Source of the DNA: [Candidatus Thermochlorobacteriaceae] bacterium GBChlB
Lineage (GTDB): Bacteria > Bacteroidota > Chlorobiia > Chlorobiales > Thermochlorobacteraceae
Reading direction: 5' to 3'
Assembly (NCBI GenBank): GCA_000724175.1
Contig: JPGV01000030.1
Span: 540 to 64,539, forward strand
Length of the DNA: 64,000 nucleotides
The translations under genes and the position numbers were made by a program. Shown here in pieces: positions 1 to 7,584 of this stretch (its first letter is position 1; each line of letters opens with the position of its first letter). Below the pieces are notes generated by a model, which was given only the letters and a program-made list of their open reading frames with translations, did no database searches and was not told the origin of the DNA.

Positions 1-3000
1 GTTGGGTATCGGCAACCTTGTCAAGTTCGAGTAAATCCTCGTTGAGTTTTTCCAAGTATTCGTTGGCTTCGTCAAGGAAGATTTGTTGCAGCTCGTCCGG
101 CACAAACTGCTTCGCTGGCTTCTCGAAGGCTGGCGACTGTGGCGGTTCGGGCGGCACAGAGAGGTCAGTTGAATCATCGAGCAGGAACGAGCCAAGCTCA
201 TTGCCGGAGTCGAGCGCAGCGTCGGAAGAGTCGAAAATGTTGGCGAAGTTGTCGGCAGAGACAAGTTCAGACGAGTCGTCGAGCGCGTCGGAGATAGGCG
301 CAGCGACAGATGGCGCGTCGGGCTTGGAGACAACTGGTTCATCGAGCAGTTCGGCATCATCAAGCGCGGCGTCGAGCAAAAATGATGTGCCATCGAGCGT
401 ATCGCCAAAATCCAAATCGGTGTCGTTTTTGTTGTCGGCGCGTTTTGTCAAATCGTTGAGCGACGACAAATCTTTCTTCAACGTGTCGGAAATTTCCGAT
501 GCGGTCTCGTTTAAAAGCGATTCATCGAACAAAAACTCTCCTGAAAGTAAGTCGTTGTTCATCTCTGAGGCAAGTGCATCGGAAAGTTCCTCCATTGATG
601 CAGGTGTCTGGGTCGGCGGCTTAAATTCCTTGATGTTGAGCGGCGCTGGCGGCGTTGAGTCAGCGGGCGCTGCATCAGATAGATTTCCCAAGTCGAAGTC
701 CAGTTCTGGAAGTTCCATGCCGCTCAGGTCGGCAAGAAGGTTAGCGTCATCTCCCGGTGTCGGGGTTGGTGGCGGCGTCTTGAACGCCTCCGTCGCAGAG
801 TCGCGTAAATCGGGTGTGTGTTGTTTTGGCACGGTCAGGTCGAGGTTGTCTTCTAAATCCAGCAAGGGCGATTCCGAGAGCAGTTGGTCTCCGAGCATCT
901 CCTCCGTCATCGCGTGAATATCCAGTGTTTGCTTGTCAATGAGATTAGTAAACTGTGCAGCTTTTTGCCCAGCTACTGGGTCAGAATCGTCCAGAGAGTG
1001 AATGGCCGCATCGTCAAGTAAAAAGTTTTCCATCGAAATGGGTTCAATCAGCGGCGACTCGTCAACGACGGGCGGCGTTGCGTGGTCGAGAACGCTCAAC
1101 GCGGAGTCGCTTTCACCTAAAAAGTCGGCGAATGAAAAATCTGACCTATCGGCGTCAGCTGCACGGTTCGTGGAAAAATACTCCAAGAGTTCAGCCGCGA
1201 TGCGGTTTTGTGCGCCCTCCAAGTCAGATTGAATCGCAAGTAAGGAAGCGTTGGTCGCGCGCGCATTGAGAAGCAGCGTGCCAAAGTCGCGCAATGATTG
1301 ATGCGGTGATTGAGAGAGCGCAGCGAAAATATCATCAACACGGCACAAGTCCGACAGATAGGCTTTAGCAGATGCTCCGACCGACGATTTCGGCAGCGAA
1401 ACATGCTCGAGCGTATCGAGCGCAAGCCAAGTAAAATCAACAGGCGGCAGCTCTGGCGCTTTGGCGATTTCCTCCACAAGCGATTCGTGCAATGAGTCTT
1501 TGACAATCGACATATCGTCGGCAACGAGCGACGCATCGGTCAGCGAAAATTCCGGGTTCGAGAAAATCTCATCGATCGATGGGGCGTTTGTATCGTCCGT
1601 CGCTGCTGGCGGTTCTTCGGCAACGCGGGCGTTCTCGGTTAGCGCCAGTGCAGCCTCAACCGGAGCTGAGAGGCTCGATTCCAATTCATCTGCGATTTTT
1701 TCCAGCGCGTCGGACTGAACAGGCGGCTCTTCTTCGGCAGCAATCGGCAACGGTTTGAGCGATGAGAGCATCTCGTCAATATCGGCGCCGTCGGTTGTCA
1801 CGCTTGAAGAACTGGTCAGCGAATGGGTCAGAGACTTGACAATGTCGTCTGCATATTTTTGAAGTTCCGACAAGGCGACGCGGTTGACCCAAGATTGACC
1901 GATGAACTCGGCAAACTCTTTGAAGAGGTCGTCGGTGGTCGTTGTAAGTGCAGCAAGCAAATCGGGCGCGGTCAGAAACACATCAACGCGCTGATGCGCC
2001 ACATCGCCGTCGGGCGTCGTCGGCAACTGAGTCTTGATGCGGTTGAAAATGCCAGCAACGAAATTGATATAATCTTGTTCCGTTGGCTCGGTCTGCGTTG
2101 CTGGCGAAGCGTCCTGAGAAGGCACGACGTCAAGAGAGATATCTAAATCTTTGGCAATGTCGTCGAGGCTGGCTACCGTGGGTATCGGCTCTTCTTCTGG
2201 AGGTGCGGTTGGCACAGTGTTCGCAAAGACATCGATTTCTGCATCATCATCTGCGAAGACATCGGTCGACGCGTCTGGCGCAACGGGCGCGAGCAGGGCA
2301 TATTGGCTGAGCAGAACGCCCGTGTCAGAATGTTGGAGCGCGTTGTGCAACGAAGTCGATAAGTGCGTGGCGACAGTCGCAGCAATAGCGGGCGTCAGCG
2401 AATTGGGGTCGACATTGTTTAGACTTTCCAAGAATCCTGAAAAATCAACAAGGTCTTGAATGAACGACAGTTGTCGAAGCTCGGCGAAAATATCGGGTGC
2501 AGTTGCCAGCCGTTCAAAAACCGCGAGAACCGCTGGTTCAAGTGGGCGAGAGCGTGATTGTTCAAAAACCGCGTCGCGCACGAGAACCACGAACTTACGA
2601 GCCACGGGCGGCGTCACATCAAGCGGTGGCTGGTTAGAGGCAGCCGCAGGTCGAGCGGTCTCCGAAGGTTTTACAGGAGCGACAGGATGAGCGCCGTTAG
2701 AGACAGATGTCTCACTGGAGCCGATGGTTGACCCGTTGCCATGGGAGGGCGCGCCGAACACTTCTGCGAGGTTAAACCCGAAGTCGGGCGAGAATGTCTC
2801 TTTAACGAATTTCGGCAAGCGTTTGCGTGTCTCTTTAAATCCTGTGGTTGTGTCAGCATTCGGTGGCGCTTGTGCGGTCTCGGTCAATCGTGGGCGTTTT
2901 GAGGAGAGCCGCTTTTTGGTCACAGACACCGCTTCAATCATCGCTGCTGCGGAAATCTCTGCACGCACTGCGTGATGCAGTGTGTAGTCGTCAAGCCGTT

Positions 3001-3445
3001 GAAGGTCGGCCGCGCGTTTCTCGACATTTTGGAATACATCGGAAAGGTATTGCGCAGTCGAGTCCAAATGTTCCGTCAAGACTTGGTAAGCGTTAAACTG
3101 GCTGCCGTTGACGAGTTCTTCGACGATACCTTGTTTGGCCGATTGCAGGAACGATTGGAAGTCGGAGAACTCCGAGATGTTCAACGCTGCAAGGTCGTCG
3201 GTAATGGTATCAGATTTGGAGAGGGCGTCGAAAAAGCGAACAATGATTTTCGATGCGCGGCTCCGGCTTTTCTTACGAAGTTTTTTGATGCGCTCGGCGA
3301 TGTCGGAGACGAAGAGCTTAATAATATCGCTTGCGTAATCGGCAAAGGCTTCTTGGCTGGGCGCGGTATCGCCAGCGAATAAACTGGACGGCTTCTGACG
3401 TGATGCCGGCGTTCCTAACGGAACATTGTCGCTGAAATAACTCAT
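1..3445 (-). CDS. CheA-like chemotaxis histidine kinase, N-terminal part (cut by window edge)
   Basis: The frame is open from an ATG at 3445 to base 2 with no stop, giving 1148 residues before the window ends. The last residues seen (LQQIFLDEANEYLEKLNEDL) match the first helix of a CheA-type Hpt domain, so kinase and adaptor domains should lie outside the window. Everything before that is an unusually long N-terminus. Residues 1 to about 125 are helical and charged. The rest is rich in Asp, Ser, Pro and Ala, with helical patches carrying a repeated D-[DP]-[IL]-x-A-x-L pattern near residues 80, 315, 495 and 705, and four F-L-[LF]-D motifs near 805, 970, 1023 and 1086. Such N-termini recall ChpA/PilL-type kinases of type IV pilus systems. 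The chemoreceptor gene ends 55 bases upstream on the same strand, so they probably share a transcript. CheA identity is inferred from one helix and the neighbour. Confidence 0.72.
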   Translation of the reverse strand, partial: MSYFSDNVPLGTPASRQKPSSLFAGDTAPSQEAFADYASDIIKLFVSDIAERIKKLRKKSRSRASKIIVRFFDALSKSDTITDDLAALNISEFSDFQSFLQSAKQGIVEELVNGSQFNAYQVLTEHLDSTAQYLSDVFQNVEKRAADLQRLDDYTLHHAVRAEISAAAMIEAVSVTKKRLSSKRPRLTETAQAPPNADTTTGFKETRKRLPKFVKETFSPDFGFNLAEVFGAPSHGNGSTIGSSETSVSNGAHPVAPVKPSETARPAAASNQPPLDVTPPVARKFVVLVRDAVFEQSRSRPLEPAVLAVFERLATAPDIFAELRQLSFIQDLVDFSGFLESLNNVDPNSLTPAIAATVATHLSTSLHNALQHSDTGVLLSQYALLAPVAPDASTDVFADDDAEIDVFANTVPTAPPEEEPIPTVASLDDIAKDLDISLDVVPSQDASPATQTEPTEQDYINFVAGIFNRIKTQLPTTPDGDVAHQRVDVFLTAPDLLAALTTTTDDLFKEFAEFIGQSWVNRVALSELQKYADDIVKSLTHSLTSSSSVTTDGADIDEMLSSLKPLPIAAEEEPPVQSDALEKIADELESSLSAPVEAALALTENARVAEEPPAATDDTNAPSIDEIFSNPEFSLTDASLVADDMSIVKDSLHESLVEEIAKAPELPPVDFTWLALDTLEHVSLPKSSVGASAKAYLSDLCRVDDIFAALSQSPHQSLRDFGTLLLNARATNASLLAIQSDLEGAQNRIAAELLEYFSTNRAADADRSDFSFADFLGESDSALSVLDHATPPVVDESPLIEPISMENFLLDDAAIHSLDDSDPVAGQKAAQFTNLIDKQTLDIHAMTEEMLGDQLLSESPLLDLEDNLDLTVPKQHTPDLRDSATEAFKTPPPTPTPGDDANLLADLSGMELPELDFDLGNLSDAAPADSTPPAPLNIKEFKPPTQTPASMEELSDALASEMNNDLLSGEFLFDESLLNETASEISDTLKKDLSSLNDLTKRADNKNDTDLDFGDTLDGTSFLLDAALDDAELLDEPVVSKPDAPSVAAPISDALDDSSELVSADNFANIFDSSDAALDSGNELGSFLLDDSTDLSVPPEPPQSPAFEKPAKQFVPDELQQIFLDEANEYLEKLNEDLLELDKVADTQ

Positions 3446-3500: not shown

Positions 3501-6119
3501 CTAAAGCAAGGTGCGCGGCGGATTGTCGTTCGAGGGGTTCATGCCGCCGCCTTCCAAGTTCGTCATATTGTCCTCCAAAAAGAGGTCGTCTTCCGTTTGA
3601 AGAGGCGGCAAGATTGGCTCGTCGGCAAACTTCGGCTTCGGCGCAATGGGCGGCATACTGAAAAGTGCGTCGCTTGGCGCGGGCATCGCAAGCGGCTCAC
3701 CGATTTTTTCCTTCGGCAGATTGATGGCTGCTGGAATTCTGAACCGAGAAACCGAGCGCGCAAGTTGCTGCGTGATGGAGTTCAGGCGCATTGCCAACTG
3801 TGCAGACTGTTTCGAACCCAACAGCGACTGTTTGGCGATTTGCGACACTTCGGTCATCGCGCTCACAACGCCCGACGATGCAATGTCTTGCTGTTTAGCA
3901 GCAAGCGAAATTTCTTGAATCAATTCGGTTGATTGTTGCACCACGCTTCGGATTTCTTCAAGGGCGCGCGAGGCGGAGTCGGCGAGTTTGGTGCCACGTT
4001 CCACTTCCAATGTTCCGCGTTCCATCGCGGACACGGCGTCTTGTGTTTCCGACTGAATCGTTTGCACGAGTTGGGAAATATCGTTGGTCGCTTTACCAGA
4101 GCGTTCTGCAAGTTCGCGTACTTGTTCGGCAACGACTGCGAAACCGCGTCCTGCTTCGCCGGCGCGGGCGGCTTCAATCGTCGCGTTGAGCGCCAAGAGG
4201 TTCGTTTGGTTGGCGATGTCTTCAATCGTCTGCACGATTTTGGAAATTTCAAGCGACGATTCACCGAGCGACTTAATTTTTTGTGCCGAGTCTTGCACGG
4301 TTGCGCGGATGCGTCTCATGCCCTCAATGGTTTCAAGCACGGTGTTGCCGCCCGTTTGCGCAACCTGCGCCGCGCGCTGCGCCGCTTCCGACGCCGAGTC
4401 GGCGTTCATAGCGACTTGACGAATCGAGGCAGCCATTTCTTCGACCGCCGCTGACGCATTGGCAACTTGAACGGACTGTTCTTCAGCACCGCGCGCCATT
4501 TGTTCAGTTGCGCCCAAAATTTCTGACGCGGCACCGCCTACCTGCAATGCCGCCGTTTGAACTTCTTCAATAAGTTTTCCAAGGTCGTCGACCATCAGGT
4601 TGAACGAGTCGGCAAGCGCGCCGAGCGCCCCTTCCGTTACAACTGCGCGCTGTGTAAAGTCCCCTTCGGCAGAGTTCGACACGACGATGAGCAAGTCGGT
4701 AAGCTGCTTCTGCATGGCGTCGCGCTCGGTCTCTGTTTCAATCAGCACAGAAAGGCGACGAATCATGTCGTTGAACTGCTTCGAGAGTTCCTCGAATTCA
4801 TCCCCAGTGGTGATGTTCGAGCGAGCGTTGAAGTCGCCAGCAAGAACGCTGGTCATCAGCAGTTTAAGTTCGCCGAGCGACGAGGTGATGTAGTCGGCGC
4901 GGCGCTGTCCATAAAACAACCCGCCGCCAACGGCAAGCAGCAACACCAGCACGGCGATGCCCAACGATGCAAGTAGCAGTGAGGTCGCTGCGTCGCGCTG
5001 GTCTTTGACAACAGCCGCAAAAAGCGCATAATCGCTCGCAACGGCCATTGTCCCTATCGTCGCGCCCGAACTGTTCTTCAACGCCGCATATTGGGTGTTG
5101 GCTTTGGCCACAACATTGGTCGATGCACCGCGAACCAAGGCGGTTCGCTCGTTAATGACTTTTTGCCATGCAGCATCGGGAATCCGAAATCCCAGTGCAG
5201 GAATATCGCTTGACACCTGTTCCGACGTCACCACCCGAATGTCGTCAATCGTCAGCGATGGCATAGACGATTCACGCGGAATCGAGCTGTGGTAGAGCGC
5301 CAGCAGTTTTGAGTTTTTATTCGCCATTTTTGCAGCGACGATACAACCGATAATCTCGCCCGACTTCGAGCGAATCGGCTGCACGGTGCTTAGCATCAAG
5401 CCGCGCTCTTCTCGGCCAGTGTAGTCCGAACCAAGGTTCGTGCCGTCGACGCGTGCTTGGTCAGCAAGCGTGCTTTTGCCCGGAATCGTGATGTCTTTAA
5501 TTGCGTTGGCTTCTGTGATAAGCTCGTTCTTGAGAATGTCAGCCGCGAAGAGTTCAAATGATGTGGTTGGTTTGCCGTTGAGCGCGTTGCTCACCAGAGA
5601 TTTCAGTGGCGATACAGGTTTCGTCGTCTTGTAGTCTTGAATGAACACATCGTCGCCGAACTTCGCTTCGTCGCTGGCGCGAAGTAGCGTTTTACCGTCT
5701 TTGCCTAAGATGGTGAACAGGCTCAAATCAAACCGTTGCATGGCAGAGACAGCTTGCGCCTGAACTCTCCGACGCGCATTGTCCTGAACGGTCTTGTCGG
5801 CCGCCGTCAAAAGTTCTGAAAGCCCATCGATGTATTCGGGGCGCGAGAGTTCCGTCGAGACCTGTGTTTGAATGAGCTGCAGATTTTGCAAGAGCATGTT
5901 TTCAAAAATACGCGAGTGTTCAAGCACACGCGATTCGGCGAGTTTATCGACATCGCTGGAGATGCGGTCGACTTGGCTATTAGTCAGAAAAAACAGCGTG
6001 CTGACAACGAAGACGGCGATGGCTAAGACAGGCAATGCGACGGCTAACACGAAGTCGCGCACTAATCTGCCTCTAAGACTCGCATTTGGAAACGCTTGCG
6101 TAAGTGGTGCCTCTGCCAT
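3501..6119 (-). CDS. Methyl-accepting chemotaxis protein (PilJ-like transmembrane receptor)
   Basis: An 872-residue chemoreceptor. Membrane segments lie at about residues 23-45 and 379-402, enclosing a large extracytoplasmic sensor region. HAMP-type sequence follows, then a long coiled-coil signalling domain whose hairpin tip ([20 protein letters not shown], about residues 634-655) is the family signature that docks CheA and CheW. The start is placed at 6119 because AAGGAGC lies about ten bases before that ATG; a further ATG at 6173 in frame has no such site. The C-terminal tail is Pro- and acid-rich and lacks a CheB/CheR pentapeptide. The CheA-like gene follows directly downstream. The receptor probably senses an external signal and controls that kinase. 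Ligand unknown. Confidence 0.93.
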
Positions 6120-6679
6120 ATTTTTCTTTGCTCCTTGCTGTTTCTCCTGTTGCGTTCCCCGCCGCCGTGTCAAACGAGATGGAACAGAATGGCGTGGCGA
6201 CGCGGTGTTCTGAAAATATCTGAAAATAAATTATTTGGTGCTATTTGGTGCGTTGATACCCTAAGCTCTTTCCCGTTGACTCTTTAGACTGAATTATCAG
6301 ACCGCCCAATCAAAAGTCCTCACTGAACGACTGTCTCCCGTATTCTTGCTCTCGAGTAGAACTCGGCGTTTGAAATCGGACAACTGTGAGGCGGACAACT
6401 CATCGCGTGCTGGATACGCAAGCGTTGAGAGGCGTTAAACATTTTCGCTAAGTTGACACCATTTTGTATCTGTAAAGTAAAAAACCTAACGTTCATTTAC
6501 AAGCAACACACATTTTTTTCTTGAAAAGAACCACAAGGGCAGGCAACGCCGCAAAACAGCGGTTTCTCTGTTTTAACCGTGCGCGATTCTAAATTGTTTT
6601 GTAAATTAAAATTAAAGAAAATATATTTCAATCCATTTGATAACTCGCTTAACAGCCTTTTGCCACTTAAAAAATATCA
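6120..6679. other. AT-rich intergenic region between divergent motility genes
   Basis: This 560-base gap separates the minus-strand chemoreceptor from the plus-strand Roadblock genes, so it must carry promoters in both directions. No coding sequence is visible. It holds a tandem repeat of CTGAAAATA/CTGAAAATAA near 6212-6232, a repeated TATTTGGTG near 6234-6250, and a small inverted repeat AAAACAG/CTGTTTT at 6553-6574. The last 90 bases before the Roadblock gene are very AT-rich. No promoter is assigned with confidence. Confidence 0.5.
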
Positions 6680-7039
6680 ATGTCGGAAATCTCTGAATTA
6701 CTATCGACCCTGATAAAAATTGACGGCGTGCGTGCGGCGGCTCTCATTGGGAAAGATGGCTTCGTTATTGACCATAAATCGCGCAACGGAAATATTGACA
6801 TCGAAACCGTCGGCGCCATCGTCATCGGCGGTTTGCACAGCTCTGAAAGTATCGGCAACGAGTTGGACGTCGGCAAGGTCGAGCAAAGCATGGTGGAGTA
6901 TGAAAACGGCATTATCTTTTCTCGGCTGTTCTCCGATGGAAACGTCATCTTGACCGTCATTGCTGACCAAAGCGCAATGCTCGGTAACATTCGCTATCAG
7001 GTCGCGAAGTTCGTGCCTGAAATTCAGAAACAACTCTAA
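6680..7039 (+). CDS. Roadblock/LC7 domain protein (MglB-like)
   Basis: A 119-residue protein that is a single Roadblock/LC7 domain. It has the family pattern of an N-terminal helix (SELLSTLIKIDGVRAAALIG), a strand with DGFVIDH, and a C-terminal strand-helix region (VILTVIADQSAMLGNIRYQV). In bacteria such proteins act as dimeric partners or GTPase-activating proteins of Ras-like GTPases such as MglA, which set cell polarity for gliding or twitching. No GTPase gene is in the window. A second Roadblock gene follows after 35 bases, and the chemoreceptor/CheA genes lie divergently upstream, which supports a motility role. No clear ribosome binding site precedes the ATG. Confidence 0.85.
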   Translation: MSEISELLSTLIKIDGVRAAALIGKDGFVIDHKSRNGNIDIETVGAIVIGGLHSSESIGNELDVGKVEQSMVEYENGIIFSRLFSDGNVILTVIADQSAMLGNIRYQVAKFVPEIQKQL

Positions 7040-7074: not shown

Positions 7075-7584
7075 ATGAGTTTTCCCGGAAAAGATGATTT
7101 CAGAAAGGTTTTTTTGACCGAAAACCAGATTGCCGCAGCAGAAAAAGTGCTAAAAGAATTTGCCACCAAAACAGGCACATCGGCTGTGATGCTCGGCGAC
7201 ATGACCGGACAGGTGCTTGCCAAACACGGCGGCTTGCTGGACAGAGATTTGGAAATTTTCAGTGTGCTTGCCGCGTCCAACTTTGTTGCCACCGCAGAAA
7301 TGGCCAAGCAAATCGGTGAAAAAGCCTCGTTTGAAGTTCTCTTTCACGAGGGCGAATCGCGCAGCATCTATCTTGTCAGTCTCAATGAGCGCTACATCTT
7401 AGAGATTATCTTCAAATCCAACATTCCACCCGGCACCATTCGCATCTACTCGAAAAAGGCGAAAGAAAAGCTCCTAGAAGTCATCGCGTCCGAAGAAGTC
7501 GAAGTCGATTTGTCAAACATCTTCGACGACAACTTCAGTTCGCTCTTGGACGAACAGCTCAACAAAACGCTGGGCGAAAAGTAA
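7075..7584 (+). CDS. Second Roadblock/LC7-like protein
   Basis: A 169-residue protein with a Roadblock-type core at about residues 15-120: helix (AAAEKVLKEFATKTGTSAVM), then LGDMTGQVLAKHGG, a helix over VLAASNFVATAEMAKQIG, and strands ending YLVSLNERYILEIIF. It is longer than the neighbour at 6680 because of an acidic C-terminal tail (about residues 125-169) with VEVDLSNIFDDNFSSLLDEQ. The two genes are 35 bases apart and end in a shared terminator, so they form an operon and may form a heterodimer. The tail could be a partner-binding segment; that is inference. Family assignment rests on fold pattern rather than a strict motif. Confidence 0.75.
   Translation: MSFPGKDDFRKVFLTENQIAAAEKVLKEFATKTGTSAVMLGDMTGQVLAKHGGLLDRDLEIFSVLAASNFVATAEMAKQIGEKASFEVLFHEGESRSIYLVSLNERYILEIIFKSNIPPGTIRIYSKKAKEKLLEVIASEEVEVDLSNIFDDNFSSLLDEQLNKTLGEK

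Follow-up and report, generated by a model that had tools for sequence, protein, structure and literature searches.

The DNA stretch analysed here (the window; 64 000 nucleotides, G000:C30:540-64539, from a source genome of 3.05 Mb in 51 contigs) begins inside a chemosensory gene cluster. On the minus strand, a 1148 aa frame (3445..2) encodes the 5′ part of a giant cheA, and the gene of its cognate methyl-accepting receptor (MCP) and two genes for Roadblock proteins lie next to it (Table 1). The locus continues on contig C40, where the kinase half of CheA is followed by two CheW proteins, an RR-DUF4388 protein, a further Roadblock protein and a small GTPase, which from small-GTPase profiles we take to be MglA-like. 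The gene order Roadblock-Roadblock / MCP-CheA-CheW-CheW-RR/DUF4388-Roadblock-MglA recurred in families f1, f2 and f5, in whole or in part as their contigs allowed. With an MglA-like GTPase and three Roadblock proteins, the cheA locus is thus MglA/MglB-linked and is syntenic in these three families. ORF inspection of the f5 locus revealed CheR, a separate Hpt and CheB in addition.

Table 1. Features of the giant cheA locus within the window.
Feature	Position	Strand	Remarks
5′ part of giant cheA, 1148 aa	2..3445	-	Full-length single-ORF orthologs 1975-2265 aa
First helix of Hpt1, aa 1114-1148	2..106	-	
Acidic low-complexity linker, aa 786-1113	107..1090	-	22% D/E, 5% K/R; carries the motif array
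Motif 4, FLLDD, aa 1087-1091	173..187	-	Not kept in position
Motif 3, FLLDA, aa 1022-1026	368..382	-	Inside a partly conserved block
Motif 2, FLFDE, aa 971-975	521..535	-	Position conserved in orthologs
Motif 1, FLLDD, aa 808-812	1010..1024	-	Not kept in position
Module M4, aa 672-775	1121..1432	-	HMM 3e-23; AF2 pLDDT 83-92; hhalign to M3 98.5%
Module M3, aa 448-566	1748..2104	-	HMM 2e-29; AF2 pLDDT 82-92
Module M2, aa 278-390	2276..2614	-	HMM 1e-23; AF2 alone pLDDT 88, pTM 0.83; also detected in distant family f5
Module M1, aa 28-160	2966..3364	-	Module HMM E=6e-32; AF2 helices, pLDDT about 80-88
Cognate MCP receptor (sCache, HAMP, MCPsignal)	3501..6173	-	Syntenic in f1, f2, f5
MCP C-terminal tail motif DDLFLEDN	3567..3590	-	Conserved in f1; tails of f2, f5 differ
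Roadblock protein 1	6680..7039	+	Syntenic
Roadblock protein 2, MglB-like	7075..7584	+	Acidic C-terminal tail NIFDDNFSSLLDEQL

The original prediction had placed 1148 residues ahead of the Hpt domain. A frame of this length was indeed found, but the pre-Hpt part comprises 1113 aa, the last 35 aa already belonging to Hpt1, whose onset is residue 1114 (FVPDELQQIFLDEANEYLEKLNEDLLELDK). The window edge coincides exactly with the end of an N gap (C30:303-539) inside Hpt1, and the giant cheA runs past it: C30:1-302 keeps the frame and opens a second Hpt copy (start of Hpt2), and the kinase half, 728 aa encoded at C40:1-2187 at the very start of that contig, contains the P1 tail, dimerisation, HATPase, CheW and receiver domains. 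The presence of Hpt, dimerisation, HATPase_c and CheW domains, assigned by Pfam in the C40 part and in the orthologs (the protein's own Hpt1 being cut by window and gap), identifies the product as a CheA, and its dimerisation domain was the sole one detected in the genome. A second region with an MCP and a CheW (G000:C7:43290-47444, L010) also has a CheY-like protein and is without a CheA of its own.

Over the comparable stretch, Hpt1 and Hpt2 were identical at 108 of 109 called bases, and this near-identity of the tandem copies accounts for the gap in the assembly where the window starts. The gap, at 237 N, is about as long as the Hpt core that is missing, so two Hpts are probable for the giant CheA, in line with most complete orthologs. 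Near-identity of the tandem Hpts inside a genome, with differences between genomes, is seen in genera g1 and g2; those of G006 share 99.3% of amino acids and 98.8% of nucleotides, and the Hpt copies of genus g2 cluster by genome in the tree with bootstrap values of 96-97. Such within-genome likeness is a sign of concerted evolution, through either gene conversion or recent re-duplication. Such near-identity, noted at window 2-106 with C30:1-302 (L008) and at L028 and L030, breaks assemblies. Near the contig end, Hpt2 reads HPIKGSA instead of HT[IL]KGSA (C30:160-180, L001:1-60), which may be an assembly-end error.

Upstream of the Hpts, four segments sharing one residue pattern had been predicted at intervals of roughly 180-235 residues. 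The pattern as literally written gave no exact match, but a relaxed form, [DP]D[ILF]..[AE]?L.{5,11}[DE]F..[FL][LI], located all four segments (residues 83, 317, 494 and 704), and their spacing of 234, 177 and 210 aa agreed with the estimate. When sub-alignments of the orthologs were compared by hhalign, M1 matched M2 at 96% and M3 matched M4 at 98.5%, the pairs M1-M3, M1-M4 and M2-M3 scored 66-73% and M2-M4 31%, whereas column-shuffled controls (40 per module pair) reached a maximum of 4.3%. An HMM built from all module copies recovered each own copy at E<=4e-23; it further detected a fifth copy in G012 (aa 557-650, 3e-11), which was outside the training set, three copies in G009, a genome excluded from training, and single weak copies in the distant family f5 (1e-8 to 2e-7). 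Judged by these profile comparisons, M1 to M4 are homologous and represent one helical module in four copies. With four copies in f1 and five in G012, module copy number evolves as a unit.

Structure prediction was carried out with AlphaFold on residues 1-780 of the giant CheA with an input of six sequences, the motif array lying outside the model. Helical bundles were predicted at all four module positions, in blocks mostly of 80-92 pLDDT separated by disordered linkers; the pTM of the 780 aa model was low (0.28), and the mutual arrangement of the bundles is not to be read from it. Modelled alone, M2 gave a pLDDT of 88 and a pTM of 0.83, with helices at 9-28, 33-44, 48-54, 59-73, 81-99 and 102-113. 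Foldseek searches of the PDB returned nothing at E<=0.001 with either the 780 aa model or M2, the best value for the module being 1.8; as small helical bundles often score poorly, a missing match is not proof of a new fold. By sequence, the modules matched a single de novo design in the PDB (E=0.43), and a plasmid collection yielded no match. No Pfam family rose above cut-off anywhere in the pre-Hpt part, where the matches were sub-threshold and inconsistent (SesA 0.0016, PIN_9 0.0076), and a known Pfam domain was therefore rejected for the modules.

N-terminal orthologs were present in 12 of 61 genomes including the source genome, all in families f1, f2 and f3 and none in f4; the carriers are Chlorobiota of the Thermochlorobacter/Chloroherpetonaceae type. 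When 395 genomes from this phylum were searched with the N-terminal profile, f1, f2 and f3 gave matches, f5 gave weak ones, and there were none elsewhere. The orthologs display four conserved blocks with poorly conserved linkers between them, pair identity being 0.26-0.35 in the modules versus 0.15-0.19 in the linkers. Profile comparison, structure prediction and orthologs together uphold the original reading of a diverged tandem helical domain followed by a short linear motif array. The module is a new domain family; what is new here lies at the level of domain family and CheA architecture and is not a new kind of system. In the single-contig genome G009, the ortholog (L037, around 6500) is split inside module 2 into frames of 313 and 2466 aa, owing to a frameshift or a sequencing error.

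The original prediction had pointed to ChpA/PilL-type CheAs with extra Hpt or FimL-like domains. On that lead, the modules could alternatively be Hpt/Xpt or FimL-like domains in degenerate form, belonging to a chemosensory kinase that controls type IV pili. The layout, with a receptor, two CheWs and a large multi-Hpt CheA that ends in a receiver, is indeed Pil-Chp-like, a CheA3 P1 domain appeared weakly in the fold search with the whole model (E=1.6), and in ChpA of Pseudomonas aeruginosa four of the nine Xpt domains are non-phosphorylated and have been proposed as scaffolds (PMC12632253). However, hhalign of the modules against the Hpts of the same proteins remained below 1% (positive control 99.9%) and no conserved His column was found, so that the modules were rejected as Hpts; nor was any Hpt present among the 50 best fold matches of a single module. 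As to the pilus itself, a PilB/PilT-family ATPase (PF00437) was undetected in the source genome and in the five f1 and f2 genomes tested (G001-G003, G009 and G012), which belong to the same order and carry this CheA, whereas PF00437 was found in 14 of 14 controls. With modules that are not Hpt-like, lack a Pfam match over cut-off and occur in genomes without a detected pilus ATPase, the ChpA/PilL lead is not supported, and we regard this origin of the modules as quite improbable.

Since no such ATPase was detected, a type IV pilus is an unlikely output of the giant CheA. SprA (TIGR04189), the translocon of the type IX secretion system (T9SS), was above cut-off in the source genome and its relatives, and the two f4 genomes tested (Chlorobiaceae-like by a name we infer) showed the reverse pattern, with a PilB/PilT-family ATPase present, SprA not detected and no giant CheA. 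GldL (TIGR03513) was above cut-off in none of the 61 genomes, perhaps because its model is too narrow. As output we favour T9SS-linked gliding, albeit unproven. One loss in Chlorobiaceae may account for the co-occurrence of CheA and SprA within the order.

All four FL[LF]D[DAE] copies ascribed to the region ahead of the Hpts were located, at residues 808, 971, 1022 and 1087, within the acidic linker, where shuffling of the linker predicted 0.02 copies. Of five occurrences in a sample of 357 ORFs (132.9 kaa) from the genome, which served as the motif background, four lay in this linker. Only in the source genome does the exact FL[LF]D spelling occur fourfold, and the orthologs carry one to three copies of the form [LFI][LFI][LFIV]D[DE][ST]. 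The core [LFI][LFI][LFIV]D[DE] exceeded composition shuffles in most orthologs (p 0.0005 to 0.02); in G004, G003 and G009 the enrichment was not significant. The copy at 971 is the sole one in register across orthologs, the others having drifted. It could be argued that the modules fold and serve other proteins as scaffolds, whereas the array arises as a side effect of the acidic and leucine-rich composition of a disordered linker and takes no part in docking, a reading with which the low conservation of the linker (0.19), the positional drift of most motifs and the restriction of the exact repeats to one genome would agree. We consider it unlikely, as composition does not explain the enrichment in most orthologs (several p<=0.002) or the one motif conserved in place.

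An extended motif, [DE][DE]?[LF][LFI][LFIV][DE][DE][NST], a pattern chosen after viewing the sequences, occurred among the 357 ORFs only in the giant CheA and the tail of the adjacent MCP. A role of this tail as a CheR tether was set aside as unlikely, because a search for CheR gave no match in the source genome. The acidic tail of Roadblock protein 2 (NIFDDNFSSLLDEQL) is conserved out to the distant f5, and by resemblance the CheA motifs, the MCP tail and the Roadblock tail may be one and the same docking motif. The stretch IFDDNFSSLLDEQ of the latter (window 7075-7584) is extremely conserved, even in f5. Modules and motifs co-occur in the same proteins (f1, f2) and the MCP C-terminus bears the same kind of motif, and the modules might therefore bind [LFI][LFI][LFIV]D[DE] motifs in their own CheA or an adjacent one and in the MCP tail, thereby packing the arrays or autoinhibiting the kinase. 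Module and motif numbers, however, do not track each other across orthologs, and we think such an intramolecular assembly rather doubtful.

The reading we prefer, to which we give about even chances, takes the giant CheA for the only CheA in a chemosensory system linked to MglA. Its pre-Hpt half would serve as a multivalent scaffold and connect receptors with MglA, the polarity switch. In this scheme the four tandem non-Hpt modules would gather partner proteins on flexible acidic linkers, and the tether with its repeated acidic-amphipathic [LFI][LFI][LFIV]D[DE][ST] motifs would offer low-affinity docking sites for a shared partner. For non-phosphorylated domains with a proposed scaffold role, ChpA is a precedent (PMC12632253). 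The kinase half would signal normally, with its own receiver and the RR-DUF4388 protein being reached through the tandem Hpts, and receptor state would thus be coupled to the site of active MglA and hence to the direction of surface movement. MglB of Myxococcus has an acidic C-terminal helix that binds an allosteric pocket of MglA, and an acidic helix of RomR can substitute for it (PMC6785124). MglA is favoured as the partner because the Roadblock/MglB-like protein of our locus ends in a similar acidic helix and these Myxococcus helices bind MglA. By analogy, the CheA motif array might keep MglA, or another partner shared by the motifs, close to the receptors. We infer that modules and motifs would bind proteins, with MglA as partner and gliding as output. 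The most specific version, in which a new helical domain family repeated in CheA would form a multivalent hub together with the acidic motifs and the receptor tail that matches them, recruiting MglA directly to the chemosensory array and steering T9SS-driven gliding, is advanced as a tentative and rather improbable proposal.

Little is understood of how chemosensory signals are passed to gliding machines in bacteria other than Myxococcus. A search of the open-access literature found no paper that mentions CheA and MglA together with Chlorobi, and only a general review mentioning T9SS, MglA, chemotaxis and gliding together. Here, one conserved Chlorobiota cluster joins CheA, three Roadblock proteins and MglA in carriers of SprA, and it offers both a new domain family, meriting a protein family entry of its own, and a testable docking motif. 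With it, the possibility that CheA passes its signal to a Ras-like GTPase by direct docking would become open to experiment.

Among known systems, FrzE and the Mgl-RomR module of Myxococcus xanthus are similar in that a chemosensory CheA with a receiver works with the MglA GTPase and the Roadblock protein MglB (PMC6785124). They differ in that here the mglA and roadblock genes lie inside the cheA locus itself. The modules and the motif array are not known to have a counterpart in FrzE. ChpA, too, is a giant CheA whose N-terminal part is long; it has several Hpts, ends in a receiver and works with two CheWs and an MCP of its own, whereas the giant CheA described here probably has just two tandem Hpts, its N-terminal modules are not Hpt-like, and its locus includes MglA and Roadblock proteins with no type IV pilus ATPase detected. 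Finally, tandem Hpts with an HT[IL]KGSA box are shared with other multi-Hpt CheAs, but those of g1 and g2 are nearly identical and homogenised per genome.
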